From positions 1 to 45,641 of the forward strand of contig NZ_BCTP01000024.1 of assembly GCF_001571345.1 (NCBI RefSeq): 45,641 nt of DNA, written 5' to 3'. This document shows positions 2,250 to 45,506 of the stretch, piece by piece. How positions within the stretch are numbered: the stretch's first letter is position 1; the number at the start of each line of letters is the position of its first letter. The notes below the pieces were generated by a model. It had not been told where the DNA came from, did no database searches, and saw nothing but the letters and a program-made list of their open reading frames with translations. The position numbers and the translations under genes were made by a program. The stretch is from Komagataeibacter xylinus NBRC 15237. Its GTDB lineage: Bacteria > Pseudomonadota > Alphaproteobacteria > Acetobacterales > Acetobacteraceae.

Positions 2250-2330
2250 TTTTCAGGTGCCGCCTTTTTTCCCAAAAAAGGCGTATTTTTCGAAGCTTTT
2301 TGAAAAAAGCTTCACCAGAAACCTTTATCG
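2250..2330. repeat. Cloverleaf repeat copy R1
   Basis: First of 13 copies of an AT-rich double-hairpin element. Here arm 1 is degenerate (GCCGCC, T-run, A-run, GGCG) and arm 2 is intact (GAAGCTTTTT/AAAAAAGCTTC). It fills the gap between the convergent deformylase-like gene and phoB, so it could end transcription from both sides. Confidence 0.8.
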
Positions 2331-2337
2331 GTTTTCT

Positions 2338-3066
2338 TCAGTCCGCCTGGCCGTCATCGAGCATGTAGCCACTTGAGCGCACGGTGCGGATCAGGTCCGC
2401 CCCGCCCGTGGCGTTGAGTGCGAGGCGCAGGCGGCGGATATGCACGTCCACCGTGCGTTCCTCCACATGGATGCGGTCATCCCACGCGGCGGCCAGGATT
2501 TCAGCGCGCGAGAACACCCGGCGCGGATGGCGCATGAGATGCAGCAGGATGCGGTATTCGGTCGGCCCCAGCGCAATGGTGCTGCCCGCGCGCGACACGC
2601 GGCGGCCGCCATGGTCGATCGTGACATCGGCAAAGGTCAGGACATCGCCCTCCGCCACGGCAGCAGCCGCAGCCCCGCGTCCGGCGCTGCGCCGCATCAC
2701 CGCGCGCACGCGCGCATGCAGCACGTCCATGCCGCAGGGCTTGACGAGGTAGTCATCCGCCCCGGTATCGAGCGCATGAATGGAATCCTGCTCCTCGCCG
2801 CGCGCGGTGAGCATGATGATGGGCAGGTAGCGCGTGGCCGCCGCCATGCGCAGCCTGCGGCACAGATCCACCCCCGACAGGCCGGGCATCATCCAGTCAA
2901 GCAGCACCAGGTCGGGCTTCCAGCTCGTTACACCGGTCAGCGCATCAAGCCCGTTATCGACCGGCATGACCGTATGCCCTGCCGCCTCGAGGTTATAGGT
3001 GAGCATGACGGACAGGGCGGCGTCGTCCTCCGCAACAAGGATGCGGAGCGGTTGATCAACCTGCAC
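2338..3066 (-). CDS. phoB: Phosphate regulon response regulator PhoB
   Basis: A two-domain OmpR/PhoB-type regulator of 242 aa. The receiver domain (about 8-122) shows the acidic pair DD at 14-15, phospho-acceptor Asp57 (LLDWMMPG), switch Thr87 (LTARG) and Lys109 (YLVKP). The C-terminal winged helix (about 142-236) has the typical RTVDVHIRRLR recognition segment and SSGYML wing. PhoB normally activates phosphate-starvation genes when phosphorylated by PhoR. It lies 5 bp behind phoU on the same strand, which supports PhoB over other family members. No pst or phoR genes are in the window, so the sensor and transporter must lie elsewhere. Confidence 0.92.
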   Translation of the reverse strand: MQVDQPLRILVAEDDAALSVMLTYNLEAAGHTVMPVDNGLDALTGVTSWKPDLVLLDWMMPGLSGVDLCRRLRMAAATRYLPIIMLTARGEEQDSIHALDTGADDYLVKPCGMDVLHARVRAVMRRSAGRGAAAAAVAEGDVLTFADVTIDHGGRRVSRAGSTIALGPTEYRILLHLMRHPRRVFSRAEILAAAWDDRIHVEERTVDVHIRRLRLALNATGGADLIRTVRSSGYMLDDGQAD

Positions 3067-3071
3067 GGGGT

Positions 3072-3779
3072 CTAGCTTCCCTGGCCCGAGAACCCGCCGC
3101 GTGGCCGCACCACGGGCAGGATCTCGCCGGTGGCGGTGTAGTACACGCGCTCGGCAATGTTGGTGGCGTGGTCACCGATGCGCTCAAGGTTCTTGGCAAT
3201 GAACAAAAGGTGGGTGCACGGCCCGATATTGCGCGGGTCTTCCATCATGTAGGTTACGAGTTCGCGGAACATGGCGTTGTAGAGTTCATCCACCGCCGTG
3301 TCGGACTGCCACACCTCGCGCGCAAGATCGGGGGTGCGCTGGCTCATGGCATCAATGGCGCGGCGCAGGTTGTCCTGCACCAGGCGGCCCATGCTGCGCA
3401 GGCCGCTGAGCGAGATGCGCGAGGCCACCAGTTCGGCCCGCAGCGAACGCCGCGCGATGGAGGCGGCGCAGTCGCCGATGCGTTCCATGTCACCGGTAAT
3501 CTTGAGGGCCGAGACCACCTCGCGCAGGTCGCCCGCCACGGGCGAGCGCAGGGCGAGGATGCGGATCACCATTGCCTCCACATCGCGCTCGAGCGCATCG
3601 ACCTGCGGGTCGAGGTCGGCTGCAATGCCGGCGGCGTTCTCGTCACGGTCGGCAATGGCGGCAACGGCCTGCGAGGTCTGGCGTTCAACCAGACCACCCA
3701 TGCGCGCCATCATGGAGCGCAACTGCTCGAGTTCCTGCTCGTAACTGCGTACGATATGTGCTGATTCCTGTCCCACCAC
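3072..3779 (-). CDS. phoU: Phosphate transport regulator PhoU
   Basis: PhoU is a helical cytoplasmic protein that links the Pst phosphate transporter to PhoR and damps the Pho response. The protein shows two PhoU repeats with the characteristic stretches ITGDMERIGDCAASIARR and NLERIGDHATNIAERV (metal-binding E/DxxxD helices). No ATG precedes the conserved start; I chose GTG 3779 (GTG 3776 is equivalent) because family proteins begin with a segment like HIVRSYEQELEQL, and AAGG lies just upstream. A longer GTG start at 3818 is possible. It forms an operon with phoB and is divergent from a TonB receptor. Confidence 0.92.
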   Translation of the reverse strand: MVGQESAHIVRSYEQELEQLRSMMARMGGLVERQTSQAVAAIADRDENAAGIAADLDPQVDALERDVEAMVIRILALRSPVAGDLREVVSALKITGDMERIGDCAASIARRSLRAELVASRISLSGLRSMGRLVQDNLRRAIDAMSQRTPDLAREVWQSDTAVDELYNAMFRELVTYMMEDPRNIGPCTHLLFIAKNLERIGDHATNIAERVYYTATGEILPVVRPRGGFSGQGS

Positions 3780-3955
3780 CCGCAACCTTTTTGCCTGCCT
3801 GCCCGCGCCATTCCGCACGATCCGCCCGATAACAGGGCTTACGATGCCTTACGGGACTATACTATATCGGTCCCCGATTTGTTCAAGACGATGTCATATC
3901 CCACCCGGATGAGACAGAATAATGAAATAAAAAGATATTTTTCAGGAACGCCCCC

Positions 3956-12992: not shown

Positions 12993-13037
12993 CCGATCAG
13001 GCACCGTTGGGACGCAGCCCACCGTAATGAGGCAATG

Positions 13038-13090
13038 AAAACTTCCGGGTGCCGCATCTTTTCAAAAAGGCGGCACCCCAAAACTTCTGT
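13038..13090. repeat. Cloverleaf repeat copy R2, single-hairpin form
   Basis: A short form with outer arm AAACTTCCGGGTGCCGC facing GGCGGCACCCC.AAAACTT around a TTTTCAAAAA centre. Lies between the convergent sodC and phosphatase-like genes and touches the stop of the latter. Confidence 0.75.
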
Positions 13091-14312: not shown

Positions 14313-14373
14313 GAGAAATTATTGGAAAGTAATAAGAGCCTATTTGAAAATAACTCATTGATAAAAAATAATA

Positions 14374-14426
14374 AAAGTTTTTGGGCGTCGCCTTTTCTGG
14401 AAAAAAGCGACACCCGGAAACCTTCA
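14374..14426. repeat. Cloverleaf repeat copy R3, single-hairpin form
   Basis: The stem reads GTCGCC/GCGAC rather than GCCGCC/GGCGGC: the C-to-T change on one arm is matched by G-to-A on the other. It lies between the convergent small membrane protein and SDR genes. Confidence 0.75.
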
Positions 14427-15808: not shown

Positions 15809-15836
15809 TTGACAGTTGTAGCAAACTGCAATGCGC
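15809..15836 (+). promoter_or_regulatory. Candidate promoter element upstream of the Cys-rich protein
   Basis: A perfect -35 hexamer TTGACA (15809-15814) is followed by an inverted repeat CAGTT/AACTG. The expected -10 position is not a good TATAAT match, so this may be an activator-dependent or chance site. It lies about 75 bp before ATG 15888. Confidence 0.3.
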
Positions 15837-15887
15837 TGTGATGCGGCAAGACCACGCGACGACCTTGAACACAGAGGAGAAAACGCA

Positions 15888-16205: not shown

Positions 16206-16235
16206 AAACGTGCCGCTGCGCGGCCGGACCGAATT

Positions 16236-16312
16236 TTCTGGTGGTGCCTTTTTTCAAAAAGCGTCGAAGAAGGCGGCCATTTTGAAAAAAGGCACCACCC
16301 AGGAACTTTTAT
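16236..16312. repeat. Cloverleaf repeat copy R4, diverged
   Basis: Outer arms CTGGTGGTGCC and GGCACCACCCAGG pair with each other. The interior (TTTTTTCAAAAA, GAAGAAGGCGG) is rearranged. It lies 3' of the Cys-rich protein gene and before photolyase. Confidence 0.7.
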
Positions 16313-16442
16313 TATTTTTTATCAACGGGTTGTTTTCAAATAGTCTCTGCAACAGGAAAAATGGCGGCGACAGGGCGGTTATTTGACGGCCTGCCATTTG
16401 TACCCCACACAAACAGCCTGTCTTTTCTGGAACAGGGTCGTC

Positions 16443-20015: not shown

Positions 20016-20025
20016 GCCGGTCCCG

Positions 20026-21008: not shown

Positions 21009-21018
21009 AAAACCAGTA

Positions 21019-21093
21019 AGGTTCCGGGTGCCGCCTTTTTTCCAAAAAGGCGGCGTTCTTCGAAGCTTTTTGAAAAAAGCTTCACCAAAAACG
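21019..21093. repeat. Cloverleaf repeat copy R5a, full form
   Basis: Left end GGTTCCGGGTG, arm 1 GCCGCCTTTTT/AAAAAGGCGGC, arm 2 GAAGCTTTTT/AAAAAGCTTC, right end CACCAAAAACG. The first of two copies in the gap between convergent petA and the MRJP-family gene. Confidence 0.85.
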
Positions 21094-21147
21094 TTCTTAT
21101 GATTTCTGGATGTTTTCCGGACCGACTTTTCACACAGTCTCTTAAAA

Positions 21148-21200
21148 AAACTTCGGGAGAACGCCGCGTTTTTGAAAAAGGGGGCACCCGGAAGCTTTTA
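21148..21200. repeat. Cloverleaf repeat copy R5b, partial
   Basis: A second, decayed copy: AACTTCGGGAGAACGCCGCG then TTTTTGAAAAAGGGGGCACCCGG. It faces R5a across 54 bp, so the gap holds a head-to-head pair. Confidence 0.7.
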
Positions 21201-21210
21201 TCACATGCTC

Positions 21211-22338: not shown

Positions 22339-22453
22339 GCCCCTACCCTATCACCCTCCGCCGCGCAGGCGGTTCACGGCTGCGTGTGGCACACGCCGTG
22401 GCGGCCCAGCGTGAGTTACCGGGCAGAAATGACCTGAAAATAAATGATTGATA

Positions 22454-22531
22454 GAAGTTTCCGGGTGCCGCCTTTTTTCGAAAAGGCGGCGTTCTTTGAA
22501 GCTTTTTGAAAAAAGCTTCACCAGAAACTTT
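22454..22531. repeat. Cloverleaf repeat copy R6, best-preserved full form
   Basis: Left end GAAGTTTCCGGGTG and right end TCACCAGAAACTTTC are inverted repeats of each other. Between them lie arm 1 (GCCGCC, T-run, A-run, GGCGGC) and arm 2 (GAAGCTTTTT, AAAAAGCTTC). It lies 3' of the DUF1269 gene. Confidence 0.9.
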
Positions 22532-22542
22532 CTGATGGCGCT

Positions 22543-22575: not shown

Positions 22576-22581
22576 AAATCT

Positions 22582-26632: not shown

Positions 26633-26953
26633 AAGGCCGCCCCTGCGCGGGTGGAAAGGCAGGTTGCGGGCGGTGCGTTACGCCGCAATGTCATCATCTG
26701 GCCCGATGTGCATGGTGCGCCCTCATGGCTGCTTTTTTCGGAAAGACGACGTCTTCCGAAGCCGTTTGAAAAAAGCTTCGCCAAAAACTTCCATCAGTTT
26801 TTTCATCACGGATTTATTTTCAGGCAGTGCCGCGCCACGCCGTGCAAAGCGGGTGGAAATACCCCCGCCATGCGTTACCCTGCCCCTGCGGCGCGCCCTG
26901 CAGCCGGAGCGCAGGTAGGCTTTCAGAACAGCTTTTGAGGAGAAGCCAGACAC
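26633..26953. other. 321-bp intergenic region with repeat R7
   Basis: Apart from the diverged repeat R7 and the likely promoter and ribosome-binding site (TGAGGAGAAG) of the ABM-domain gene, I see nothing here. Frames through it have no supporting features. Confidence 0.5.
26715..26795. repeat. Cloverleaf repeat copy R7, diverged
   Basis: Arm 2 is GAAGCCGTTTG/AAAAAAGCTTC and arm 1 is decayed (GGCTGCTTTTTTCGGAAAGACGACG). The right end CGCCAAAAACTT is preserved. It lies between two plus-strand genes. Confidence 0.65.
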
Positions 26954-27790: not shown

Positions 27791-27797
27791 ATGAGAC

Positions 27798-27826: not shown

Positions 27827-27900
27827 TCTTCGTGGAACCTATTGATTTAACAGCATTATTTTACTTTCAAAGAAACTACCAACCAAAGCGCCCTTTTTAC
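27827..27900 (-). promoter_or_regulatory. CRISPR leader-like AT-rich flank with IHF-like site
   Basis: The sequence on the leader side of the solitary repeat is AT-rich in a GC-rich genome. Read on the minus strand it contains AATCAATAGGTTC (27835-27847), matching the IHF consensus WATCAA-N4-TTR except for the last base, eight bases from the repeat. In E. coli an IHF site in the leader is needed for spacer uptake. This spacing and orientation are those expected of a type I-E leader; its activity is inference. Confidence 0.5.
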
Positions 27901-27967
27901 CTCCCCCTTTCCATGCCCTCGGGAAAGGATCATCGTCAGGGTTCACGCCACAGCGCAGGCAGGCATC

Positions 27968-28042
27968 ATCCGGGTGCGGCTTTTTTCAACTGGCTGCGAA
28001 AAAGCCCGCCTTTTTGAAAAAAGGCGGCACCCGGAAATCTTT
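27968..28042. repeat. Cloverleaf repeat copy R8
   Basis: Outer arms CCGGGTGC and GCACCCGG are perfect, arm 1 is TGCGGC...GCTGCG, and the closing arm CCGCCTTTTTG/AAAAAAGGCGG is intact. It lies between the gluconolactonase remnant/CRISPR repeat and the convergent fumC gene. Confidence 0.8.
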
Positions 28043-28048
28043 ATCCTG

Positions 28049-29503: not shown

Positions 29504-29597
29504 GGTGGCGTTCCTTCCCTTATGGTTGAAGGGAATATGAGCACACCGCCTGCCTTTCGCGCCCCTGCCTGCCATCACAAGCGAGTGCGCGGCACTT

Positions 29598-29647
29598 CAT
29601 GAAAAAAATGCCGCCTTTTTAAAAAAAGGCGGCACCCAAAAACATGT
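29598..29647. repeat. Cloverleaf repeat copy R9, single-hairpin form
   Basis: ATGCCGCCTTTTT/AAAAAAAGGCGGCA forms one long hairpin ending CCCAAAAACAT. It lies 3' of the siderophore receptor gene. Confidence 0.75.
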
Positions 29648-29668
29648 ACTGTTTTTTGAACGGTGTTT

Positions 29669-32008: not shown

Positions 32009-32145
32009 GCTGATTCCATTTCGTTAGCCATTTTGAACATGCATGGCCGTATATAACCCGCCTGCCGCAACGTCTATATCAGCATAAATATATTAATCAC
32101 GTAATCGTCATATAGCGTATGACTGTGTCCTTATAGATACAGATG

Positions 32146-32167
32146 TCTATATATGGTTGTATATAGA
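32146..32167. promoter_or_regulatory. Palindrome TCTATATA-N6-TATATAGA
   Basis: Eight-base perfect arms around TGGTTG in the AT-rich leader of the siderophore receptor, about 140 bp before its start. It does not fit the Fur, RirA or Irr consensus as I know them. Operator role is inference. Confidence 0.35.
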
Positions 32168-32390
32168 TGCGCCTACTTTACCAACCACCCCTGATGACCC
32201 GGCTTTTGCAGCCAGCACAGTGCGATACGGCACAACTATATGGAATCGATACTGAAAAACACGTTCCGCCCGTGGCATTTACAGCGGCCCGCGCCGCAAT
32301 ACCGCACGCAGGCGGAACGGGTGCTCCATTTCCGGCCACCCTGCCCCTTCGGGCGCAGGCCACGCCCATCCGGCCCGGACGCCATCAGTC

Positions 32391-32460
32391 AGAAAGCTTT
32401 TTTCCAAAAAGCTTTGAAAGGACAACGCTTTTTTGAAAAAGGCGACACTCTGAAATCCTT
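32391..32460. repeat. Cloverleaf repeat copy R10, diverged
   Basis: AAAGCTTTTTTC/AAAAAGCTTT is intact, while the second arm (AACGCTTTTTTGAAAAAGGCGACA) has lost much of its pairing. It lies 3' of the LysE/RhtB gene, beyond two palindromes. Confidence 0.65.
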
Positions 32461-32492
32461 CGTCCATAAGCTGTTTTACAACTGGTTTTCCA

Positions 32493-32539
32493 GAGCAGAT
32501 CCAGTTTGAATGGTCACATTCGAACTGACGAAGATGCTC
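32493..32539. repeat. Imperfect 47-bp palindrome with GAGCA/TGCTC ends
   Basis: The ends GAGCA and TGCTC, and the inner arms CAGTTTGAAT (32502-32511) and ATTCGAACTG (32518-32527; one mismatch), form a long hairpin. It differs from the R family and may be a small mobile-element remnant. Confidence 0.45.
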
Positions 32540-32557
32540 GATAAATAATGAGCCAAA

Positions 32558-32591
32558 GCAATTCCACTGAGCCAGAGCCCTGTGGAATTGC
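32558..32591 (-). terminator. Hairpin terminator of the LysE/RhtB gene
   Basis: GCAATTCCAC and GTGGAATTGC form a perfect 10-bp stem one base after the minus-strand stop; TTTGG follows the stem in the direction of transcription. The T-run is short, so efficiency is uncertain. Confidence 0.55.
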
Positions 32592-32592
32592 T

Positions 32593-33222
32593 CTAGACGC
32601 GCGCCAGTAGCAGCATGGCTCCGAACCCCATGAATACCAGCCCGGTCACGATACCAAACACCCGCCGCACCACCGGTGTGCGCAACCAGGCCGACAGCAT
32701 GCGCCCGCCGCCCGCGTAAACCAGGTACCAGAACGCCTCCACAAACACGAAGGTGGTCACGAGCAGGACATATTGCGGCATGTGCGCGGCTGCGGGATTG
32801 ACGAACTGCGGCAGGAAGGCCGCCGCAAACAGCAGCAGCTTGGGGTTGCTGATACCGGTCAGGAATCCATCACGGAACAGTTCATGCCACGGAGCGGCCG
32901 GGCGCGGGGCCGCCGCCTGCGCATCCTCGCCTGCCGTGTCGCGCGCCATCCACACGCGCACGCCCAGAAACACCAGATAGGCCGCCCCCACCACGCGCAG
33001 CACCGCAAACAGCCGGGGCGAGGCGGCCAGCACGCCCGCCATGCCAGCAAGGGATGCGCACACCACCAGCACGATGGCCAGCATGCACCCCGCCATGACC
33101 CCCGTGCTGCGCAGCAGGCCGTGGCGCACGCTGATGGACATGACATGCATCATGTTCGGTCCCGGCATGGCCGAGAGCAGGAAGGCGGTGGCGGCGAACA
33201 GCAGCCATGTATGAAAGCTCAC
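32593..33222 (-). CDS. LysE/RhtB family exporter
   Basis: A 209-aa inner-membrane protein with about six hydrophobic helices. The early motif LLSAMPGPNMMHVMSISVRHG is the LysE/RhtB signature (PGPN), and GFLTGISNPKLLLFAAAFLPQFV is the second conserved block. Such proteins export amino acids or related small metabolites. I chose GTG 33222 (SFHTWLLF), because GGGGTGA precedes it at the right distance and it matches family length; ATG 33240 and GTG 33261 are alternatives. It is divergent from the zinc operon. Confidence 0.82.
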   Translation of the reverse strand: MSFHTWLLFAATAFLLSAMPGPNMMHVMSISVRHGLLRSTGVMAGCMLAIVLVVCASLAGMAGVLAASPRLFAVLRVVGAAYLVFLGVRVWMARDTAGEDAQAAAPRPAAPWHELFRDGFLTGISNPKLLLFAAAFLPQFVNPAAAHMPQYVLLVTTFVFVEAFWYLVYAGGGRMLSAWLRTPVVRRVFGIVTGLVFMGFGAMLLLARV

Positions 33223-33305
33223 CCGTTTCACCCCGATCATGCCATGCGCATGGCGTAACAATGCAGCCTTCGCTTGACGGATGGCAAGCCCGTGCTGTAG
33301 ACGAA

Positions 33306-33320
33306 TGTTATATTATAACA
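33306..33320. promoter_or_regulatory. Zur box
   Basis: TGTTATATTATAACA is a perfect 15-bp palindrome and matches the core of the proteobacterial Zur operator (GTTATA-N-TATAAC); the flanks GAA and CTTTG extend the similarity. It lies 15 bp before the first zinc-operon ORF, where a bound repressor would block transcription when zinc is sufficient. Confidence 0.75.
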
Positions 33321-33334
33321 CTTTGGGCGTTCCC

Positions 33335-33532
33335 ATGCCATTCCCCTCCCCGTCTGCCGCCCGTCACGCCCCGCAGGACCACAACACGACAATGCCCCAC
33401 CCTGCCCCCAAGGCGGCAACGCCCCTGCCGCTTACATGGATGGCCCGCGCGGGGTGGCAGCGCCTGGTGTGCATGGCGCTGCCCTGTGGCCTGTTATGGG
33501 GGCTGGTGGCCTGGGCCGTGGCCCAGCCATGA
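33335..33532 (+). CDS. Small membrane protein heading the zinc operon, 65 aa
   Basis: A frame that ends ATGA-overlapped with the ATPase gene (stop 33530-33532, next ATG 33529). The N-terminal half is Pro/His/Ala-rich and the C-terminal third is one hydrophobic helix (VCMALPCGLLWGLVAWAVA). ATG 33392 is an alternative start; neither has a strong ribosome-binding site. Position directly behind the Zur box, and coupling to the ABC genes, suggest a small accessory protein of zinc uptake. No family is recognised. Confidence 0.45.
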   Translation: MPFPSPSAARHAPQDHNTTMPHPAPKAATPLPLTWMARAGWQRLVCMALPCGLLWGLVAWAVAQP

Positions 33533-34260
33533 GCCATGGCGCCATCGGGCTGGATGATGCGGGTGTCGCACTCAACGGCACGCCGGTGTGGCAGCATGTA
33601 ACCGGCAGCTTCGCGCCCGGCAGCATGACCGCCATCGCAGGCGCCAATGGCGCGGGCAAGTCCACCCTGCTGCGCGCCATACTGGGCGAGGTGCCGCTGG
33701 CCGCAGGCAAAATCACGCTCGGGGGCCTGCGCGCGCAGGATTTTGGCTACCTGCCGCAGGCCCGCATCATTGACCGCGCCTTTCCCATCAGCGTAACCGA
33801 CATGGTGCTCGGTGGCGCATGGCGCCAGACCGGGGCCTTTGGCGCGGCCAGCCCTGCCGTGCGCCAGCGCGCGGCCGATGCGCTGTGCCGCGTGGGGCTG
33901 GAAAAACAGGCCGGGCGCATGATCGATGCACTCTCGGCAGGGCAGTTCCAGCGCCTTCTGTTCGCGCGCCTGCTCATGACCGATGCCTCCGTCATCATGC
34001 TCGATGAACCGTTCACCGCACTTGATGCCCCCACCACGCAGGACCTGCTGGCACTGGTGCGCGAATGGCACGCGCAGGGCCGTACCATCATTGCCGTGCT
34101 GCATGACATGCACCAGATCCGCACCTGCTTTCCCCATGTGGTGCTGCTCTCGGGCGGGCAGGCCATCTGGGGCGAGACCGCGCGCATCCTTACGCCGGGC
34201 ACGCTGCAACGCGCCTACGAGACGCCGCAGGCCACCCCGTGGGCAGGTGGCCCGGCATGA
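33529..34260 (+). CDS. znuC: Zinc ABC transporter ATP-binding protein
   Basis: A 243-aa ABC ATPase with Walker A GANGAGKS (38-45), signature LSAGQ (where LSGGQ is usual), Walker B VIMLDEP and a switch His in VLHDMHQ. It powers uptake through the downstream permease. The start at ATG 33529 overlaps the preceding small ORF, and its stop overlaps the permease start (ATGA at 34257-34260). Metal preference (Zn rather than Mn) is inferred from the Zur box. Confidence 0.88.
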   Translation: MSHGAIGLDDAGVALNGTPVWQHVTGSFAPGSMTAIAGANGAGKSTLLRAILGEVPLAAGKITLGGLRAQDFGYLPQARIIDRAFPISVTDMVLGGAWRQTGAFGAASPAVRQRAADALCRVGLEKQAGRMIDALSAGQFQRLLFARLLMTDASVIMLDEPFTALDAPTTQDLLALVREWHAQGRTIIAVLHDMHQIRTCFPHVVLLSGGQAIWGETARILTPGTLQRAYETPQATPWAGGPA

Positions 34261-35129
34261 GCATGCTGGCCGGATTATGGGAGCCGTTCGCCACCTTCGG
34301 CTTCATGCGTCGCGCGCTGGTCGCCTCCATCACGCTGGGCATGGGGGCGGGGCCGGTGGGCGTGCTGCTGCAGCTACGCCGCATGAGCCTGATTGGCGAT
34401 GCAATGAGCCACGCCATCCTGCCCGGTGCCGCCATAGGCTTTCTGGCGGCGGGCGGGCTGTCGCTTACGGCCATGGGGCTGGGCGGCATCGCGGCGGGGC
34501 TGGGGGTGGCGCTGCTGGCAGGCCTGGTCAGCCGCCGCACGCACCTGGCGGAAGATGCGAGCTTTGCCAGTTTCTACCTCACGTCACTGGCGCTGGGCGT
34601 GCTGATCGTCTCGGCGCGGGGGTCCAACATCGACCTGCTGCACGTGCTGTTCGGCACCATCCTCGCCATTGACGGGCCTGCCCTGTACCTGATGGCGGGC
34701 ATCACCACGCTCAGCCTGTTCCTGCTGTCCTTCATCTGGCGGCCGCTGGTCATGGAATGTGTCGATCCCGGCTTCATGCGCATGACCGGCAGCCGCGGCG
34801 CGCTGTACCACATGGTGTTCCTGTTCCTTGTGGTCATCAACCTCGTGGCCGGGTTTGAAGCCCTGGGCACGCTCATGTCGGTCGGCATGATGATGGTGCC
34901 CGCCGCCACCGCCCGGCTATGGACACGCCGCCTCGTGCCGATGATGGCGCTCTCGGCCACGGTGGGCATGCTGGCGGGCTTCACGGGGCTGCTCGTGTCC
35001 TACCATTTCCGGCTGGCGGCGGGGCCGTGCATCATCCTCACCTGCTCGGCCGCCTACCTGTTCTCCCTTCTTGCCTCCCCCGCCGGAATCCGCGCGGGGG
35101 GTGGTTCATCCCCTTTCCGGAGTCACTGA
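34257..35129 (+). CDS. znuB: Zinc ABC transporter permease
   Basis: A 290-aa permease of the ABC-3 (ZnuB/MntB) family with about eight to nine membrane segments. Family landmarks include LIGDAMSHAILPG near residue 43, GLVSRRTHLAEDASFASFYLTSLALGV (in two parts, about 89-115) and MSVGMMMVPAATARLW near 207. It starts inside the znuC stop and ends one base before znuA, forming a tight operon. Confidence 0.88.
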   Translation: MSMLAGLWEPFATFGFMRRALVASITLGMGAGPVGVLLQLRRMSLIGDAMSHAILPGAAIGFLAAGGLSLTAMGLGGIAAGLGVALLAGLVSRRTHLAEDASFASFYLTSLALGVLIVSARGSNIDLLHVLFGTILAIDGPALYLMAGITTLSLFLLSFIWRPLVMECVDPGFMRMTGSRGALYHMVFLFLVVINLVAGFEALGTLMSVGMMMVPAATARLWTRRLVPMMALSATVGMLAGFTGLLVSYHFRLAAGPCIILTCSAAYLFSLLASPAGIRAGGGSSPFRSH

Positions 35130-35130
35130 C

Positions 35131-36027
35131 ATGCGCCGCCTCACCTGCCTTCTGGGCTTCTGCGGTTTCCTGTCCATCCAGCCTGCCCATGCAGCCCCCG
35201 CGCCGCATGTGGTGCATGCCGTTGCCAGCTTTACCGTGCTGGCCGATGTGGTGTCGCATGTAGGCGGCGCGCATGTCGCGGTCACATCACTGGTGCCGCC
35301 CGATGGCGACCCGCATGAATTCGAACCCGCCCCCGATGATGCCCGCGCCCTGCGGCAGGCCGATGTCGTGTTCATGAGTGGCGAGGGGCTGGAAAGCTGG
35401 TTTGGCCGCCTTGCCCACGCGGCGGGCTATCAGGGCAAGCCCGTCATCGTCTCGAACGGGATCGACATCCACACCGAACACGATGGCCAGCAGGTGGAAA
35501 CCGACCCGCATGTGTGGAACAGCGTGCCCAACGTGATTGTATGGACCAACAACATCCGCGATGCGCTGATTGCCGCCGACCCGGCGGATGCCGATGATTT
35601 CCGCGCCTCCGCCGCAACCTATGCCGCGCAGCTCCAGACCCTTGACCATGACATCCGCACCGCGATCGACACCATCCCCCCCGCGCGGCGGCGCGTGCTG
35701 ACCAGCCATGATGCCTTTGGCTATTTTGGCCGCGCCTATGGCGTGACCTTCATGGCGCCACAGGGCCTCTCGACCGAGACCGAAGCCTCCGCCGCCGATG
35801 TGGGCAGGCTGATCGCACAGATCCGCGAAAGCGGCATGACCACCTATTTCCTTGAAAACGCGACCGATCCGCGCCTTGTGCAGCAGGTCGCCCACGCCAC
35901 CGGGGCGCAGCCCGGCGGCGAGCTTTATGCCGAGGCGCTCTCCACCGCGGGCGGCCCCGCACCCGATTACATCAGCATGATGCGCCACAATACCGAGCTG
36001 ATGGTCAGGGCGATGCGTCCGCACTGA
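35131..36027 (+). CDS. znuA: Zinc ABC transporter substrate-binding protein
   Basis: A 298-aa periplasmic protein with signal peptide (about 1-21, PAHA). The cluster A-I metal ligands expected for ZnuA/TroA proteins are visible: His in GDPHEFEP, His in DPHVWNS, His in TSHDAFGYF and an acidic residue near the C-terminus. There is no long His-rich loop, only HTEHD, which some zinc-specific members have in extended form; Mn or broader specificity cannot be excluded from this gene alone. ATG 35131 follows the znuB stop by one base. Its last 23 bp overlap the convergent ABC exporter gene. Confidence 0.87.
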   Translation: MRRLTCLLGFCGFLSIQPAHAAPAPHVVHAVASFTVLADVVSHVGGAHVAVTSLVPPDGDPHEFEPAPDDARALRQADVVFMSGEGLESWFGRLAHAAGYQGKPVIVSNGIDIHTEHDGQQVETDPHVWNSVPNVIVWTNNIRDALIAADPADADDFRASAATYAAQLQTLDHDIRTAIDTIPPARRRVLTSHDAFGYFGRAYGVTFMAPQGLSTETEASAADVGRLIAQIRESGMTTYFLENATDPRLVQQVAHATGAQPGGELYAEALSTAGGPAPDYISMMRHNTELMVRAMRPH

Positions 36028-37768
36028 CCACGTCGGTCGCACCCACGGCAAAGGGGGTGAGGTCAATGGCATTTTCATGCATGCCCACCACCGACTGCCG
36101 GTGCGTGATCGACACCACCGTCATGCCCGGGCAGGTCTGGGCCAGCAGGGCGTAAAGGGCGGCCTCGGACGCGGCATCGAGGTTCGAGGTCGATTCATCC
36201 AGAAACACCCAGCCCGGCCGCGCCAGAACGATGCGCGCGAAGGCCAGGCGCTGGAGTTCACCGGGCGAGAGGATCTGCCCCCACGGCTCCTCGTTTTCAA
36301 GGCGTGGCACCAGCGCGCCAAGGCCCACCTGCTGCAGCGCCTGCGCCACCTGTGTTGCGGCATAGGCCGTGCTGTCCGCCGGATAGGTCACGGCCCGGCG
36401 CAGCGTGCCAGTCGGCATGTAGGGGCGCTGGGGCACGAACATCATCGGCACGTCAGGGCGCGTGATCGTGCCTTTTGCAAACGGCCAGATGCCTGCCAGC
36501 ACCCGGAACAGCGTGGACTTGCCGGTGCCCGACGGGCCGGTCACCACCGTCATCTGCCCATGCGGCAGCGTAAGGTTCACACCCCTGAGCAGGGCCGTGC
36601 CATCGGGGCGGAACACGTCCAGCCCGCTGACCTGCATGCCCGCCCCGGCGGGGGCCGCAATGAGGCTGACCTCGCTCTGCATGGCCTGCGCGCGGTCCAT
36701 CACGCGCTGGAAGGTGGCCAGACGCGCCACCTCCGCATGCCATGTGGTCAGCGCGGCATAGGAGTTGGACAGCCAGCCCAATGCCCCCTGCACGCGCGAG
36801 AACGCCATGACCAGCTGCATGAGCGTGCCAAAGCTCATCTTGCCCGCGAAGTAGCGGATCGAGCCGATCAGCAGCGCAAAGTTGCCCGACACCACATCAA
36901 GCCCCGTGGTGAGCAGCCCCAGCCATTTGGTACGGCGCATGATGGACAGGAAATTGCCATAAACGGAGGCGAAGGATCGGTCGAGCCCGGCCTGTTCCTC
37001 CGCCTCGCCCCGATAGAGCGCGATGCCTTCGGCATTGTTGCGCACATGAACGAGGCTGTAGCGGAAATCGGCCTCGGCGCGCTGCTGGAAGAACTGCAGC
37101 CCCGCCAGCTTGTGCCCCGCCAGATGCGTGACCCACGTCGCCACCACGGAATAGATGAGTGCGGCCCAGAAGAAATAGCCCGGTATGGACATGCCCCATA
37201 TTTCCAGCGGCCCGGACAGCACCCACAAAAGCCCGACATAGCTGAACAGCGTCACGATATTGGACAGCAGGTTGATGAACTGCGTCAGCGTATCGGTCAC
37301 GAAGCTGTTCAGGTCCTCCTGTATGCGCTGGTCGGGGTTGTCGGCCCCGGCCTCAAGGCCCGACGTGGTGATGGCGATGCGGAAATAGGTCTGGTGCTCC
37401 ATCCACTGCCGCGTCATGCGCGCGGTCAGCCAGCGCCGCCAGCGCAGGCCGAGCATCTGTTGCAGGTAGGTGGCATAGACACTGAACAGGATGGCCGGAA
37501 TGGTGATGATGAAGAAGCCGGGCACGTACCCGCTGTCATTATGCACATACCAGAACAGCCCGCGCAGGAAGGTGGTGGCATCACGCTGCTGCAGCGCCGT
37601 GTAATACACATTGCGCGAGAAGGACTGGAGCAGGTCCATCCCCACGATGGAGAAGGTCAGCACCAGAACGGCCACGAGCAGGCCCCAGGCCCATTTTTTG
37701 TCCTCCGACACGAAATAGGGGCGGGTCAGGTACCAGACATCTTTCAGGAGAAGGCGCAAATGCTGCAT
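36005..37768 (-). CDS. SbmA/YddA-type ABC transporter (fused permease-ATPase)
   Basis: A 587-aa half-transporter. The N-terminal membrane part (about 1-330) has six helices and the SbmA/BacA-like features WRRWLTARMTRQWMEHQTYFR and NPDQRIQEDLNSF (NPDQR). The C-terminal ATPase has Walker A GPSGTGKS, signature LSPGELQRLAF and Walker B VFLDESTSNLD. Relatives (YddA, ABCD-type) move peptides, cobalamin or acyl compounds. I start at ATG 37768 (MQHLRLLLKDVW); longer frames reach 37897 but are weakly supported. It ends 23 bp inside znuA, tail to tail. Substrate unknown. Confidence 0.85.
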   Translation of the reverse strand: MQHLRLLLKDVWYLTRPYFVSEDKKWAWGLLVAVLVLTFSIVGMDLLQSFSRNVYYTALQQRDATTFLRGLFWYVHNDSGYVPGFFIITIPAILFSVYATYLQQMLGLRWRRWLTARMTRQWMEHQTYFRIAITTSGLEAGADNPDQRIQEDLNSFVTDTLTQFINLLSNIVTLFSYVGLLWVLSGPLEIWGMSIPGYFFWAALIYSVVATWVTHLAGHKLAGLQFFQQRAEADFRYSLVHVRNNAEGIALYRGEAEEQAGLDRSFASVYGNFLSIMRRTKWLGLLTTGLDVVSGNFALLIGSIRYFAGKMSFGTLMQLVMAFSRVQGALGWLSNSYAALTTWHAEVARLATFQRVMDRAQAMQSEVSLIAAPAGAGMQVSGLDVFRPDGTALLRGVNLTLPHGQMTVVTGPSGTGKSTLFRVLAGIWPFAKGTITRPDVPMMFVPQRPYMPTGTLRRAVTYPADSTAYAATQVAQALQQVGLGALVPRLENEEPWGQILSPGELQRLAFARIVLARPGWVFLDESTSNLDAASEAALYALLAQTCPGMTVVSITHRQSVVGMHENAIDLTPFAVGATDVVSADASP

Positions 37769-38139
37769 GTTGATCCCGTGCAGTGGGGTGAAAGGCATGA
37801 ACCCACAGCATTCCCACGAAGTGGGGGCGGACTCAATCATGATTGCGCCGCAGGCCCGTTTTGCATGCGAAAAGCCGGGAACATTAAGCATTATCACAAC
37901 TTATTGACCACATGCGCCATTTGCGCGCGCCCGGCACCCGGTGGGCAATACTGGCTGACAACAGGGGTTTATGGCGCACAAAGCGCATGACAAGGGCGCC
38001 ATATATCGAAAAGACGAATGCCTGACATATCCGCCGCAGGGGTGTGGCGCGCGCCCATCGTGTTATGCCTGACACATAGTTTCACAATTGAGTGGGCGCC
38101 TGCCGTGCCCGCCTGATGAACAGTGCAAGGAATAATGAA
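37769..38139. other. 371-bp divergent intergenic region
   Basis: Holds the promoters of the ABC transporter (minus) and the DUF2501 gene (plus). Frames in it (for example 37884-38075 minus) have no ribosome-binding site or similarity. I see no clear operator or repeat of the R family. Confidence 0.5.
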
Positions 38140-38589
38140 ATGGTGTCGTTCGGTCGCGTCCTGTCCGCCAGTGCCTTCGCAACCGTGCTGGCCGCAGCAC
38201 CGCTTGCGGCCCATGCCGCTGAAGTCTCGCCGCCCACGGGCGCAGGCGTTGCCAACCAGGTCGAGCAGATCAAGCCGGGTTCGCTCTCGGCTGATACGGT
38301 GTATTCCGCCGTTGCCTCCGCCAAGCCCGCTGATCTCGGCGGCATCATGAACTACTGCATCCAGTCCAACTACCTGACCGCGTCTGAAGCGTGGCCGGTG
38401 CTCGCGGCCTTCAACAAGAAGACCAACGACGTGCCGTCCAACCAGAAGGGCAACATGTCCTACGCCGATGGCTCGACCGGCCTGCTGAAGGTGGGTGGCA
38501 AGGCCCCCATCTCGCTCGAGGATGCCTCGAGCGACATCCGCAAGCAGGCCTGCGCCAAGGTGGAAGCCCGCGCGAAGTCCATGCTCTGA
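38140..38589 (+). CDS. Secreted DUF2501 family protein (YjjA-like), 149 aa
   Basis: A small periplasmic protein with signal peptide (about 1-26, LAAHA). The mature part has the DUF2501 pattern: GIMNYCIQSNYLT, a middle region ending in GSTGLLKVGG, and the C-terminal IRKQACAKVEARAKSML, with two Cys likely forming a disulfide. E. coli YjjA is the reference member; its function is not established. ATG 38140 is chosen with AAGGAAT upstream; ATG 38116 is an in-frame alternative. Codon use is strongly biased to preferred codons, suggesting good expression. Confidence 0.75.
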   Translation: MVSFGRVLSASAFATVLAAAPLAAHAAEVSPPTGAGVANQVEQIKPGSLSADTVYSAVASAKPADLGGIMNYCIQSNYLTASEAWPVLAAFNKKTNDVPSNQKGNMSYADGSTGLLKVGGKAPISLEDASSDIRKQACAKVEARAKSML

Positions 38590-38620
38590 TTACGGCGGCC
38601 TGACGCCTCGTTTACAGACC

Positions 38621-38647
38621 CCGTCAGTGAAGCTGGCGGTTTTTTTT
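38621..38647 (+). terminator. Rho-independent terminator of the DUF2501 gene
   Basis: CCGTCAG (38621-38627) pairs with CTGGCGG (38633-38639; one G-T pair) around TGAAG, followed by eight T. A textbook intrinsic terminator 31 bp after the stop, and separate from the R repeat that follows. Confidence 0.85.
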
Positions 38648-38653
38648 ATTTTA

Positions 38654-38736
38654 AAGAAGTTTTTGGTTAAGCTTTTTTCAAAAAGCTTCAAAGAACGCCG
38701 CCTTTTTGAAAAAAAGGCGGCACCCAAAAACTTTTA
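38654..38736. repeat. Cloverleaf repeat copy R11, full form, inverted
   Basis: Outer ends AAGTTTTTGG and CCAAAAACTT are perfectly complementary and differ from the TTTCCGG/CCGGAAA ends of other copies at paired positions. Arm 2 (AAGCTTTTTTC/AAAAAGCTTC) comes first and arm 1 (GCCGCCTTTTTG/AAAAAAAGGCGGC) second. It lies between convergent genes. Confidence 0.9.
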
Positions 38737-38749
38737 TTCCGTATCTTCC

Positions 38750-40435
38750 TTACTGCACCCACACGCGTGAAAAGGCCATGTGATACAGGCTGGTCACGAA
38801 ATAATGGCCCAGCCGGGGCGAGACGAGATCGACATACCGCGTGCTGATCATGGGGGCACCGGGTGCGAGGCGGGTGATGCGGTCATCCACCTGCCCCCAC
38901 AATGCCAGCGCCACGTGCGGGTCGGGTTCGCTACGGATACGCGCCACGAGCCCCTGCACCACCGGGTCGCACAGGCCGGACATGTTGATGGAACTGTCGG
39001 AACCGGGATGGAAGTTCTCGCAGCCAAACAATGTGTCAAGAAAGTTGGAGGGCGAGGCGTAATCCGCATACCACCCCAGCAGGCTGATCTGCACATGGTT
39101 GGCGGTATTGGCCGCGTAAGTGCCCTCCATGGCGGGCGAGAGCGGATGCAGCCGCGCGTGGTAGCCAATCGCCTCGAGCATGTCGCGCAGATAGGTGCCC
39201 ATGCTCACATACATGGCGGTGGCGGGCACGATCAGGGTCACGTCCATGCCCTCCGTGCCGCTTTCATGCACAAGCTGGCGGGCGCGTTGCAGGTCCGGGT
39301 GCGCCCAGGGCGTTGCCGGGTGGTCGGGGTCGGCGCCGCGCGTCCAGGCACACGCGCCATCACCGGGCAGCAGGCCGGGGGGCACCATGCGGCACAGCGG
39401 GGCTGCAATGCCCGACCCGCCGTACAGGATGGTCATAGCGCGGCGGTCAAGCGCGTAGTTTACGGCCTCGCGCGCCTTGGGCTGGTCAAAGGGCGGGATG
39501 TTGACGTTCATCGGCAGGAAGATCAGGCCATAAAGCGACGATACATGCACCTGCGCCGTGTAGCGGCTGCCGATCTCGCCCAGCCGGTCAAGCGGCTTGA
39601 GGCCCGCCATCCAGTCATATTGCCCGCGCTCGACGGCGGTAACCGCATCTTCTTCCGACAGGCCGAAATCATAAACGATACGGTCCACATACCCATCGGG
39701 CTGGGCCGCCTCGCTCCATTCATGAAAATAGGGGTTGCGCGCGAGCACCAGCCCGCGCTCGGGGTCGGATGACACGATCTGGTACGGCCCCGTGCCAGGG
39801 GCGGCCACATTGCCCAGGTCATGCGCGGGCGTGGAAGCTGGCAGGATGGTGGCATGGCCGAAGGCGAGTTTTTGCGGGAATTCCGAGTCAGGCTGGGTCA
39901 GGCGGATGGTGATGCGGCGGGTGGCGGGGTCGGTCTCCACGCCGCCTTGCAGCGTGCAGTGCGTACTATTACGCAGGCAGGCATCCGCCCCCACTATGGT
40001 ACCGTAAAACGAACCTGCCGTGGGCGTGCCCACCTTGAAGATGCGCCGCAGGGACGCTGCCACGTCCTCCACCGTAACCGGCGTGCCATCTGAAAAGCGG
40101 ATGCCATCGCGCAGGGTGAACACCCATGTGCGGCCGCCATCACGCGGCTCGGGCATGGCCTCGGCCAGATCAGGCACCACCTGGTTGCCTGCCGGCCCCT
40201 CCAGCTTGGGATAGGTGAGCAGCCCGTCATAGATGACGGTGGCAAGCTGCATGTACTGGCTGGTGTAGCTGATCTGCGGGTCAAGCGTGCCGGAAGCACT
40301 CGCCGCCGTCAGCCGCAGGGTGCCGCCGCGATGCGGGCTGCCCTGCGTGCCTTGTGCAAAGCCCGTGGCAGGCAGCGCGTGCAGGCCGCTGAGCATGAGC
40401 ACGACAATGCCCAGCCGATGGCACAATGCCCGCAT
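38750..40435 (-). CDS. Orphan ABC-type solute-binding protein, family 5
   Basis: A 561-aa periplasmic binding protein of the peptide/nickel (DppA/OppA) type. Signal peptide about 1-28 (GFA|QG). Conserved segments are GGTLRLTAASASGTLDPQ near 37, ATVIYDGLLTYP, FTLRDGIRFSDGTPVTVEDV, GTGPYQI and FDQPKAREAVNYALDRRAM. No permease or ATPase genes adjoin it; it is last in the operon behind polA and the SCO-like gene, 17 bp after the latter. Its ligand and partner transporter are unknown. Confidence 0.87.
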   Translation of the reverse strand: MRALCHRLGIVVLMLSGLHALPATGFAQGTQGSPHRGGTLRLTAASASGTLDPQISYTSQYMQLATVIYDGLLTYPKLEGPAGNQVVPDLAEAMPEPRDGGRTWVFTLRDGIRFSDGTPVTVEDVAASLRRIFKVGTPTAGSFYGTIVGADACLRNSTHCTLQGGVETDPATRRITIRLTQPDSEFPQKLAFGHATILPASTPAHDLGNVAAPGTGPYQIVSSDPERGLVLARNPYFHEWSEAAQPDGYVDRIVYDFGLSEEDAVTAVERGQYDWMAGLKPLDRLGEIGSRYTAQVHVSSLYGLIFLPMNVNIPPFDQPKAREAVNYALDRRAMTILYGGSGIAAPLCRMVPPGLLPGDGACAWTRGADPDHPATPWAHPDLQRARQLVHESGTEGMDVTLIVPATAMYVSMGTYLRDMLEAIGYHARLHPLSPAMEGTYAANTANHVQISLLGWYADYASPSNFLDTLFGCENFHPGSDSSINMSGLCDPVVQGLVARIRSEPDPHVALALWGQVDDRITRLAPGAPMISTRYVDLVSPRLGHYFVTSLYHMAFSRVWVQ

Positions 40436-44080: not shown

Positions 44081-44141
44081 TCTGATCGGCCTCGGGTTGT
44101 TGTCCGGCTTGGATTTGCATGGCGCGCCCGATGGGCAGGCC

Positions 44142-45239
44142 ATGCGCTGGCCCATGATGATACGCAGGATTGCCGTGCTTTCAAACATTCGCCTGTCACG
44201 CCTGCTTTATCCAGCGCTTTTTGTGATGTTGACCGCCTGCGCCACCCATGAGGCCCCGGCCCCCACGCCGCCCGCGCGGCATGCCGGACTCGCCCGCCTC
44301 ATACCGCCTGACCGCGTGGTGGATATTGCGGGCGTGGGTGCCGTGCCATTGCGCCTCTGGCCCGCCCGTGGGCCGGAACGCGCGGTGATTGTAGCGCTGC
44401 ATGGCTTCAATGACAGCCGCGATGCGTGGGAGCGCCCGGCCCCGGCACTCAATGCCGCCGGGCTGAGCGTGGTCGCCCCCGACCTGCCCGGCTTTGGCCA
44501 GACACAGGCACGCGGCGGTTGGGTGGGCACGGACATGCTGCGCCGCACGGTCAGCACTCTGCTCACCACCATCGGGCGTGAACACCCTGGCGTGCCGCTC
44601 TACATCATGGGCGAGAGCATGGGCGGCGCACTGGCCGCCGTAATGGCGGCCCGGCCTGACGTCCTGCCGGTAGCAGGCACGATCCTGCTGGCTCCGGCGT
44701 TGTGGGATCTGGACGCGGGCGCGCGCCTGACCACCCACCTGATGGCGGCCATGGCCCCGCGCTGGCGGCTGAGCGGGCGCGAACTGCCCGTGCATGTGAC
44801 CGCAGCCGATGACCAGTTGGCCCTTGCCCGCCTGTACTACGACCCGCTGACCCTACGCGACACATCAACCACGGCGCTCGCCGGGCTGACCGACCTCATG
44901 CATCAGGCCGCCCATGCCAGCGCCCACATGCATGGCCCCGTGCTGGTGGTGTATGGTGGGCGCGACCAGATCGTGCCCGCCGCCGCCATGGCGCGGGCGT
45001 GGCGGCACATGCCAGATGGCACAAGGCTGGATTACATACCCAACGGCTACCACCTGCTGACCCGCGGGCGGGCAGGCGAGAAGGTGACGGCGGACCTGAC
45101 AGGCTGGATCCTGCACCCCGAACGCTTCCTGCCCTCGGGCGGGGATGCGGCGGCGGCGGCATGGATGGCCGAACCCGCTGGCCACGACGCCCCGCTGCCC
45201 ATCCTGCCCGGACGGATGGACGCAATCGCGCCGCGATGA
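44142..45239 (+). CDS. Lipoprotein alpha/beta hydrolase (monoacylglycerol lipase-like)
   Basis: A 365-aa hydrolase of the serine aminopeptidase S33/monoglyceride lipase type, anchored as a lipoprotein (lipobox VMLTAC about residue 28-33). The catalytic triad is visible: oxyanion segment ALHGFNDSRDAW, nucleophile Ser in GESMGG, Asp in VVYGGRDQIVP and His in NGYHLLTRG. It probably cleaves an ester or lipid at the envelope. ATG 44142 is preferred because GGGCAGG precedes it; ATG 44154/44157 are alternatives. It is divergent from the polA operon and followed by tRNA-Arg. Confidence 0.85.
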   Translation: MRWPMMIRRIAVLSNIRLSRLLYPALFVMLTACATHEAPAPTPPARHAGLARLIPPDRVVDIAGVGAVPLRLWPARGPERAVIVALHGFNDSRDAWERPAPALNAAGLSVVAPDLPGFGQTQARGGWVGTDMLRRTVSTLLTTIGREHPGVPLYIMGESMGGALAAVMAARPDVLPVAGTILLAPALWDLDAGARLTTHLMAAMAPRWRLSGRELPVHVTAADDQLALARLYYDPLTLRDTSTTALAGLTDLMHQAAHASAHMHGPVLVVYGGRDQIVPAAAMARAWRHMPDGTRLDYIPNGYHLLTRGRAGEKVTADLTGWILHPERFLPSGGDAAAAAWMAEPAGHDAPLPILPGRMDAIAPR

Positions 45240-45294
45240 TTTTTCCCGATTGGGGCTGGCGTTCCGGCCTGTGGCGATGTATGCAGGCGTGAGT

Positions 45295-45371
45295 GGACTC
45301 GTAGCTCAGCTGGATAGAGCGTCGCCCTCCGAAGGCGAAGGTCGAAGGTTCGAATCCTTTCGAGTCCGCCA
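45295..45371 (+). tRNA. tRNA-Arg (anticodon CCG)
   Basis: A 77-nt cloverleaf with acceptor stem GGACTCG/CGAGTCC, D arm GCTCAGCTGGATAGAGC, anticodon arm TCGCC-CTCCGAA-GGCGA with anticodon CCG, and T loop TTCGAAT. It ends with encoded CCA (GCCA). It would read CGG arginine codons, which suits this GC-rich genome. Repeat R12 follows 55 bp later. Confidence 0.97.
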
Positions 45372-45426
45372 TTCCCAGATAAAATATAATAATACCATTT
45401 ATTTAGATGGTAGTTTATTATCAGAT

Positions 45427-45506
45427 AAAAGTTTCCGGGTGTCGCCTTTTTTCAAAAAGGCGACGTTTTTCAAAGCTTTTTGAAAAAAGCTTTACCAAAG
45501 AATTTT
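45427..45506. repeat. Cloverleaf repeat copy R12, full form with paired substitutions
   Basis: Arm 1 is GTCGCCTTTTTT/AAAAAGGCGAC and arm 2 is AAAGCTTTTT/AAAAAGCTTT. Compared with R6, both arms carry changes on both strands that keep pairing. Left end AAAGTTTCCGGGTG; right end TTACCAAAGAATTTT. It lies behind tRNA-Arg. Confidence 0.9.

Follow-up and report, generated by a model that had tools for sequence, protein, structure and literature searches.

A cloverleaf repeat behind genes of Komagataeibacter is the core of a small mobile element and probably serves at transcript 3' ends

Why should one short repeat recur almost only behind genes: because it is harmless there, or because it forms part of the gene's ending? 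Komagataeibacter strains are producers of cellulose and vinegar, in which both terminators and genome instability are of practical concern. Within the window, the whole stretch of 45,641 nucleotides from Komagataeibacter xylinus NBRC 15237 that was analysed, an initial annotation had described 13 copies of an AT-rich cloverleaf at 12 loci and proposed a MITE-like or otherwise spread element acting as a bidirectional terminator or mRNA 3' end. We found no description of such an element in the literature, in which our coverage of subscription journals was poor.

Thirteen core copies and their position relative to genes

An iterated DNA profile recovered all 13 copies, the weakest with E 2.2e-6, and a repeat search of the window returned the same repeat families. 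Copy 1 (2245..2327, +; E 5.6e-18) lies in a convergent gap. Copy 2 (13036..13089, +), a short single-hairpin form between the convergent Sod_Cu and PAP2 genes, was found in all three congeners mapped at that gap, in G018 with a compensated stem change. Copy 3 (14372..14426, −) is another short form in a convergent gap, with an outer inverted repeat at 14336..14350 (+; GAGCCTATTTGAAAA, two mismatches) and TAA directly outside. Copy 4 (16231..16311, −) lies just 3' of the stop of a plus-strand ORF; its outer repeat at 16333..16347 (−) reads GAGACTATTTGAAAA on that strand and has no TNA outside. Copies 5 (21018..21096, +) and 6 (profile bounds 21113..21201, −) share a convergent gap. The outer repeat of copy 5 (21127..21141, −) reads GAGACTGTGTGAAAA and is followed outward by TAA, both as read on the minus strand; the bounds of copy 6 overlap this arm, and its own core begins near 21145. 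One recognisable outer end was thus present on each of three window copies.

Tandem gaps hold copies 7 (22452..22532, +), 8 (26728..26793, +, diverged) and 11 (32395..32456, −). Copy 9 (27969..28044, −) is rearranged and lies in a convergent gap next to a fumarase-C-type gene, and copy 10 (29596..29648, −), detected by both profile and terminator scan, is a short form whose hairpin precedes a T-run on the minus strand, resembling a terminator. Copy 12 (38655..38736, −) occupies the minus-strand gene's side of a convergent gap; outside the element, the plus-strand gene has an ordinary intrinsic terminator (38621..38647, +; stem 38621-38639, then a T-run), whose hairpin recurs in each of the 16 congeners that were aligned with the window. 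Copy 13 (45426..45506, +) follows a tRNA gene (45295-45368). In Rfam, the only match in the window at gathering score was the tRNA, with none for the repeat; at 10 loci searched with E up to 1, nine matches appeared, all below gathering score and mostly to miRNA models.

The full form has inverted ends around two hairpins, GCCGCC-T6C/A5-GGCGGC and GAAGC-T5G/A6-GCTTC, and the short form is a single hairpin, as originally described. The paired substitutions that we checked, GTCGCC/GGCGAC and AAAGC/GCTTT, both occur in copy 13. Copies occupied 6 of 7 convergent gaps in the window (gaps ≥25 bp), or 5 of 6 once weak gene calls were removed. The further claim that none of eight divergent gaps holds a copy very probably stands: the gene caller placed one copy, copy 4, in such a gap, most likely an artefact, since the plus-strand ORF 15831-16205, which the caller missed, ends just before it. 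That ORF is well conserved at the DNA level in five aligned relatives, one of them with a 6-base indel.

The convergent excess extends beyond the window. In a 385-kb sample of the same genome outside the window, copies were present in 21/29 convergent, 1/34 divergent and 16/133 tandem gaps (convergent vs divergent, Fisher 2.8e-9), after 6 of 60 sites with E ≥ 1e-3 had been dropped. Convergent and divergent gaps held copies at 55/97 vs 4/120 in congeners and at 75/97 vs 3/101 in loci of named species, with 2 sites in the congeners and 21 of 179 sites in the named-species loci falling in no gap, the latter mostly near locus ends. Tandem-gap copies were closer to the upstream stop in 17/20, 37/42 and 68/79 cases. 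Genes were called with a home-made program that overlooks small ones and that, for the G185, G316 and G292 loci, was trained on another genus. Copies are denser in the window (13 in 45.6 kb) than in the 385-kb sample (41), and extrapolation from that sample gives about 390 per genome.

The cloverleaf within a transposable element

The potential cloverleaf of about 80 bp proved to be just the core of a larger unit whose outer arms and inverted repeats had been overlooked. The whole element is non-coding, measures 150-165 bp and ends in outer inverted repeats GAGACTGTTTGAAAA, a sequence with 64 matches in its own genome at ≤1 mismatch vs none for the reversed control. A perfect 3-bp target duplication flanked 22 of 25 full-length copies, with the form TNA in 21 of 25; among looser candidate end pairs, 10 of 28 had TNA duplications. 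A small, non-coding, multi-copy element with terminal inverted repeats and target duplications is a MITE.

TNA lay outside 62 of 87 recognised ends, and 18 of the 87 abutted a called stop codon. Counted per element, 18 of the 68 copies for which an end could be recognised sat exactly in a stop codon, vs 988 of 14,712 TNA sites in gaps (6.7%). Two stop codons, TAA and TGA, fit the TNA target; when an element enters one of them, the duplication restores the stop and the gene stays whole, a concrete mechanism for the harmless placement of a mobile element behind genes. By gap, the full-length copies were divided into 11 convergent, 8 tandem and 0 divergent, with 6 at locus edges. The outer arms are often missing while the core remains, and, with short or weak copies excluded, arm-less cores were about as conserved as armed ones; in the sample from the window's own genome they were slightly more diverged (0.900 vs 0.926).

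Among 18 congeners the core was present or absent at orthologous gaps, compared per gap and not as base-precise empty sites. This supports the mobility for which the initial annotation had looked to empty-site comparison. The copy 7 gap (22339-22581) lacks the element in G008 and contains it in five other close congeners. At the copy 9 gap, three congeners lack the element and have the two neighbouring genes adjoining each other, and there it is dispensable. Six PLSDB plasmid records also hold the core, with no annotated feature under the best core match in a gene table that is itself incomplete. Outside the family, the profile gave single weak matches in two genomes, which we took as chance.

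The IS1031 group of the IS5 family is described as following a 3-bp TNA target duplication rule, with inverted repeats of the form GA..CTGT; one member, ISLrh, has the repeat GAACCTGTCTAGTATCT (PMC12016507). The full-length copies share this duplication (21/25), and their inverted repeats have the same general form. They differ from the group in being non-coding and only 150-165 bp long, and no autonomous parent or transposase with the same ends was found among the matches listed, of which a minority of the IS-sized pairs was inspected singly. One candidate, at L215:5176-6066 (= L265:1327-2217), was considered as a parent for the outer repeat it shares and was rejected, as the transposase there is that of an IS ending in GGGCCTGTTGGGAATTA. 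This IS5-type IS is nested inside or beside MITE copies.

Stem pairing and possible signs of a transcript 3' end

An alignment of 120 of 122 selected copies, from which two rearranged window copies were left out and for which short or weak copies were not selected, gave 65 cells with double stem changes vs 37 (sd 5) after shuffling; none of 500 shuffles reached this value. Slid controls gave 32-57, making the excess modest. Such covariation could alternatively come from template-switch correction of quasi-palindromes. Between genera the stems covary wholesale: other Acetobacteraceae genera have the same architecture behind genes with different stem letters, the stems being swapped while the tops and the outer stem are retained; in one alignment across genera, hairpin 2 is out of register. 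Of the elements seen in seven other genera, 11 were convergent, 12 tandem and 3 divergent, with 1 within a called gene and 1 at a contig edge. A hand-written structure scanner, too strict in that it found 14 elements in the sample from the window's own genome vs 54 by profile, detected 13 in 784 kb of seven other family genomes (G226, 5; G262, 1; G062, 1; G333, 6; none in G331, G160 and G152) and 0 in reversed sequence. Four of the six G333 elements lay in no gap, leaving too few for a test of context.

G-U pairs made up 79 of 161 cases when element and gene were on the same strand vs 38 of 124 when opposite (p 0.002; 35 of 5000 permutations of copy labels), with short or weak copies excluded. 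This transcribed-strand bias is a hint of an RNA role. It is of moderate size, hairpin 2 does not show it (11/33 vs 7/21), and mutation may account for the part derived from G-C.

Full forms end in CUUUUAU, a U-rich exit, and are without the classic GC hairpin and long T-run. A terminator scan of 20000-39999 overlapped three of eight copies, one of them cleanly, and the short form at 29596-29648 qualified. Ordinary terminators outside the copy were found at 9/242 convergent gene ends with a copy vs 25/153 without, and at 2/108 vs 26/399 tandem ends. We discarded the reading that a copy and an ordinary terminator exclude each other, because a mock mask placed on copy-free ends lowered their counts as well, from 25 to 1.6 and from 26 to 3.7. 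With a longer window, 20/242 convergent and 10/108 tandem masked copy-bearing ends had an ordinary terminator.

Weighing the explanations

We consider it reasonably probable that the repeat is a MITE core spread by IS1031-type insertion and since then most likely retained for its RNA fold at transcript 3' ends. On this view the 13 window copies are cores or other remains of a 150-165-bp non-autonomous transposon whose integration duplicates a 3-bp TNA target in the manner of the IS1031 group. Insertion into TAA or TGA restores the stop, and presumed purging of harmful insertions elsewhere would have left copies directly behind genes. The outer arms are often lost afterwards. What stays is a core with a potential cloverleaf fold whose exit is U-rich on either strand; in both orientations it may terminate transcription, weakly or bidirectionally, or hold up exonucleases. 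Of the original proposal, the MITE half is supported by the outer repeats, the TNA duplications and the gaps with and without the element. Two outcomes that the initial annotation had named as counting against it, a lack of convergent excess genome-wide and a lack of covariation in the stems, were not what we saw. The half concerning a terminator or mRNA 3' end is our inference from the covarying stems, the G-U bias that depends on strand, the persistence of cores without arms and an architecture found across the family.

The same element might instead be purely selfish, surviving behind genes since it does no harm there, with a cloverleaf that serves transposition and has no host role. TNA duplications and stop-codon insertion account for the placement without any host function; full-length, presumably young copies already avoid divergent gaps (11 convergent, 8 tandem, 0 divergent); and the element is missing from single congeners such as G008 and is found on plasmids. 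In pneumococcus, too, tolerated insertions, even IS elements, are reported as convergent-enriched (PMC3049150). We nevertheless regard this as rather unlikely: arm-less cores, immovable by the outer repeats, remain about as close to the consensus as armed ones, G-U bias tracks the transcribed strand, and the architecture is kept across genera despite different stems.

BIMEs have been proposed to absorb supercoils or bind nucleoid protein between convergent genes. An AT-rich cruciform site with that function would fit the strong convergent-gap preference and the palindromic, AT-rich sequence, the genome as a whole having about 64% GC, but it is improbable given that copies are also common in tandem gaps, near the upstream stop, and that the bias in pairing varies with the strand transcribed. 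We give almost no weight to REP-type repeats moved by a RAYT (Y1) transposase. REPs are likewise short palindromic repeats, and the GTAG and CGTC classes are described as lying mostly downstream of genes, with stem G-T pairs read as a sign of transcription and ends that can supply stop codons (PMC3733652). Against a RAYT origin, no Y1_Tnp match was found in 19 genomes of the genus, vs matches in 5 of 14 control genomes; long inverted repeats flanked by 3-bp TNA duplications are rather what an IS5-type element would have; and CGTC repeats are given as missing in Acetobacteraceae in the same source (PMC3733652).

The repeat offers a system in which to test whether a transposon core has been retained as an mRNA 3' end. 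A bolder version, which we put forward tentatively, is that of a self-spreading gene ending: an Acetobacteraceae-wide cloverleaf acting as a two-way mRNA 3' end, spread by an IS1031-type MITE that restores the stop codons it enters, with the fold preserved and the stems rewritten from genus to genus. SPRITE and RUP of Streptococcus pneumoniae are similarly described as MITE-like, AT-rich, folded and convergent-enriched, and SPRITE has been proposed as a co-opted terminator (PMC3049150). The Komagataeibacter element differs from them in sequence, in its two hairpins within an outer stem, in stop-codon insertion with TNA duplication and in stems that turn over between genera. Clustered-hairpin intrinsic terminators, as described, also consist of neighbouring hairpins no more than 80 bases from the stop codon and do not always require a poly-U tail (PMC8355165); unlike them, the element in Komagataeibacter is repeated and mobile.

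Architecture and mobility of the element

All 13 repeat copies that the initial annotation had described in the window were recovered by repeat finding and an iterated profile (weakest E 2.2e-6). Its proposed fold for the full form was also borne out by the window sequence and the profile, with AAAAGTTTTTGGGTG and its partner enclosing hairpin 1 (GCCGCC-TTTTTTC-AAAAA-GGCGGC) and hairpin 2 (GAAGC-TTTTTG-AAAAAA-GCTTC). Three window copies retain one outer end. Separately, a small ORF at 15831-16205 (+ strand) is conserved at the DNA level in congeners and was overlooked by composition-based gene calling.

This ~80-bp cloverleaf is the core of a mobile element, a MITE, as shown by its outer ends, its target rule, its use of stop codons and its presence or absence at orthologous gaps. 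In line with the MITE-like spread first suggested from the window, copies found at orthologous gaps in some species were missing in others. Some copies had longer matching flanks (arms), both terminating in GAGACTGTTTGAAAA, an end that matched 64 times at ≤1 mismatch in this strain's genome, compared with 0 for the reversed control. The full-length element measures 150-165 bp.

Among the matches listed, 25 pairs of exact GAGNCTGTTTGAAAA ends lay at MITE spacing, a few of them shared with the looser sets of ends. Identical 3-bp flanks bordered 22 of these 25 copies, 21 of the 22 being TNA; 11 copies were convergent, 8 tandem, none divergent and 6 at locus edges, and 6 of the 25 were inserted exactly at a called stop codon. 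Of 68 copies that keep one or both ends in recognisable form, 18 lie precisely in a stop codon (TAA or TGA). By comparison, stop codons make up 988 of 14,712 gap TNA sites (6.7%). The search behind the 68 also covered 44 loci retrieved through their ends, in addition to the sequence used for TNA counting. Because the element enters TAA or TGA as a TNA target with a 3-bp duplication, the stop codon is duplicated. The same TNA preference and 3-bp repeat are described for the IS1031 group of the IS5 family (PMC12016507).

An IS5-type insertion sequence bounded by GGGCCTGTTGGGAATTA apparently uses the MITE itself as an insertion target: it lay within hairpin 2 at three loci (L275, L277 and L281), in an arm at L265, and at the core's outer edge in this strain's locus L272 (~1338-2160). 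A candidate autonomous parent at locus L215 (5176-6066) was rejected: it is a decayed IS lying within an arm of the MITE, and it resembles a parent because the two share the outer repeat. Among the matches listed, congener G005 ranked first of 19 genomes, with 63 exact copies of the outer repeat and 14 full-length pairs, which looks like a recent burst of the full-length MITE.

Position relative to genes

The reported excess in convergent gaps extended beyond the window. In 385 kb of this strain's genome, made up of contigs 1 and 4 and a 20-kb piece of contig 7, the profile gave 41 sites at E<1e-3. Copies occupied 21/29 convergent, 1/34 divergent and 16/133 tandem gaps of ≥25 bp, and none of the 41 sites fell inside a called gene. 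This rate extrapolates to ~390 copies per 3.62 Mb, or ~450 with the richer window added. Likewise, the counts were 55/97, 4/120 and 42/212 in 18 congeners (660 kb), and 75/97, 3/101 and 76/293 in 110 named-species loci taken from among the matches listed for an exact core pattern. The convergent bias recurred in each named group alone: Komagataeibacter, Novacetimonas (with Gluconacetobacter entanii) and Acetobacter musti. Tandem-gap copies lay closer to the upstream stop (17/20, 37/42 and 68/79 in the three samples), at a median distance of 22-26 bp in both element orientations.

Convergent enrichment is no proof of function, because pneumococcal IS elements are likewise enriched between convergent genes (PMC3049150). 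Gene-trailing MITEs and REPs are a known kind of repeat, some of them resembling terminators; SPRITE, RUP and REPs are examples. Within the parts of the literature searched, no description of this Acetobacteraceae family was found; word searches found no "MITE" in two Komagataeibacter genome papers (PMC13028821, PMC6528568) and neither "repeat" nor "palindrom" in a Gluconobacter RNA-seq paper (PMC5756330). In Rfam, only tRNA exceeded the gathering threshold in the window, and all matches at 10 loci were sub-threshold. Phage records gave 0 matches at E 1e-5; six plasmid records, from Komagataeibacter and Novacetimonas, matched the element.

Core survival and its candidate RNA role

The core outlives the outer ends, and its pairing is biased by strand. 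Local alignment of 218 full cores found 113 without either arm and 35 with both. Arm-less and armed cores were similarly close to consensus: the medians, arm-less versus armed, were 0.942 vs 0.926 in named-species loci and 0.853 vs 0.852 in congeners, but ran in the reverse direction in this strain's sample (0.900 vs 0.926). The U-rich exit from the outer stem persists for ~8 nt in arm-less copies (46% over 9 positions vs 25% and 19% farther out), which may reflect selection or an arm remnant.

Stem covariation, which the initial annotation had proposed as a check, was found. In 120 of 122 selected copies (<90% alike), 86.1% of pair cells were paired, and 65 double-change cells compared with 37 (sd 5) after shuffling (0/500 as high) and 32-57 in versions slid by 1-3 columns, a signal that copy kinship and palindrome correction may inflate. 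Orthologous copies had stems changed on both sides, for example in gap 38590-38749 (GCCGCC/GGCGGC vs ATCGCC/GGCGAT).

The core probably folds in RNA, where it would end or protect transcripts. A folded transcript predicts a strand-dependent G-U bias. Read in element orientation in tandem gaps, G-U versus A-C counts were 79 vs 82 on the gene's strand and 38 vs 86 on the opposite strand (Fisher p 0.002; copy-label permutation 35/5000). Hairpin 1 (28/43 vs 5/24) and the outer stem (40/85 vs 26/79) carried the contrast, with none in hairpin 2 (11/33 vs 7/21). Changes from A-U pairs leaned the same way (109 vs 85) and unpaired sites leaned oppositely; changes from G-C pairs (55 vs 35) could be C>T asymmetry. 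Against a terminator role, simple terminator criteria were clean for 1/8 copies scanned. In gap 38590-38749, an ordinary terminator hairpin of the + gene occurs in the window and 16/16 aligned congeners, and the core lies on the - gene's side; the profile finds no core in 5/16 (G010, G009, G013, G017 and G001), of which G010 keeps a diverged remnant. Mutual exclusion of copies and ordinary terminators was dropped, as its test failed its control.

At gaps 21009-21210 and 27791-28048, the two convergent genes touch each other or share a few bases in the element-free congeners G001, G013 and G017 (extrapolated from anchors), leaving no space for an intergenic terminator.

Distribution across Acetobacteraceae

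In a wider search, also proposed initially, model R1 matched all 18 other genomes of the genus and, at E 1e-8, 42/299 family genomes in 19/102 genera (own genus counted). Loci from seven other genera showed the same cloverleaf, with outer AAAAGTTTTTG/CAAAAACTTTT and tops T6C/A5 and T5-6G/A6, on differing stems (e.g. GCTTC, CTCCC, TGGGGTG, GCCGC). Of 28 other-genera copies, chosen by score, 11 were convergent, 12 tandem, 3 divergent, 1 within a called gene and 1 at a contig edge. Each of the 12 tandem copies lay closer to the upstream stop, with a one-base margin in one case. An arm resembling that of Komagataeibacter is visible at L312 (genus g86), which makes shared ancestry with the MITE likely there; for the other copies it is possible. 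At loci L310, L317, L336 and L322 (genera g79, g45 and g58), the outer stem is lengthened by covarying paired letters (gaat/attc, gtat/atac, ggat/atcc).
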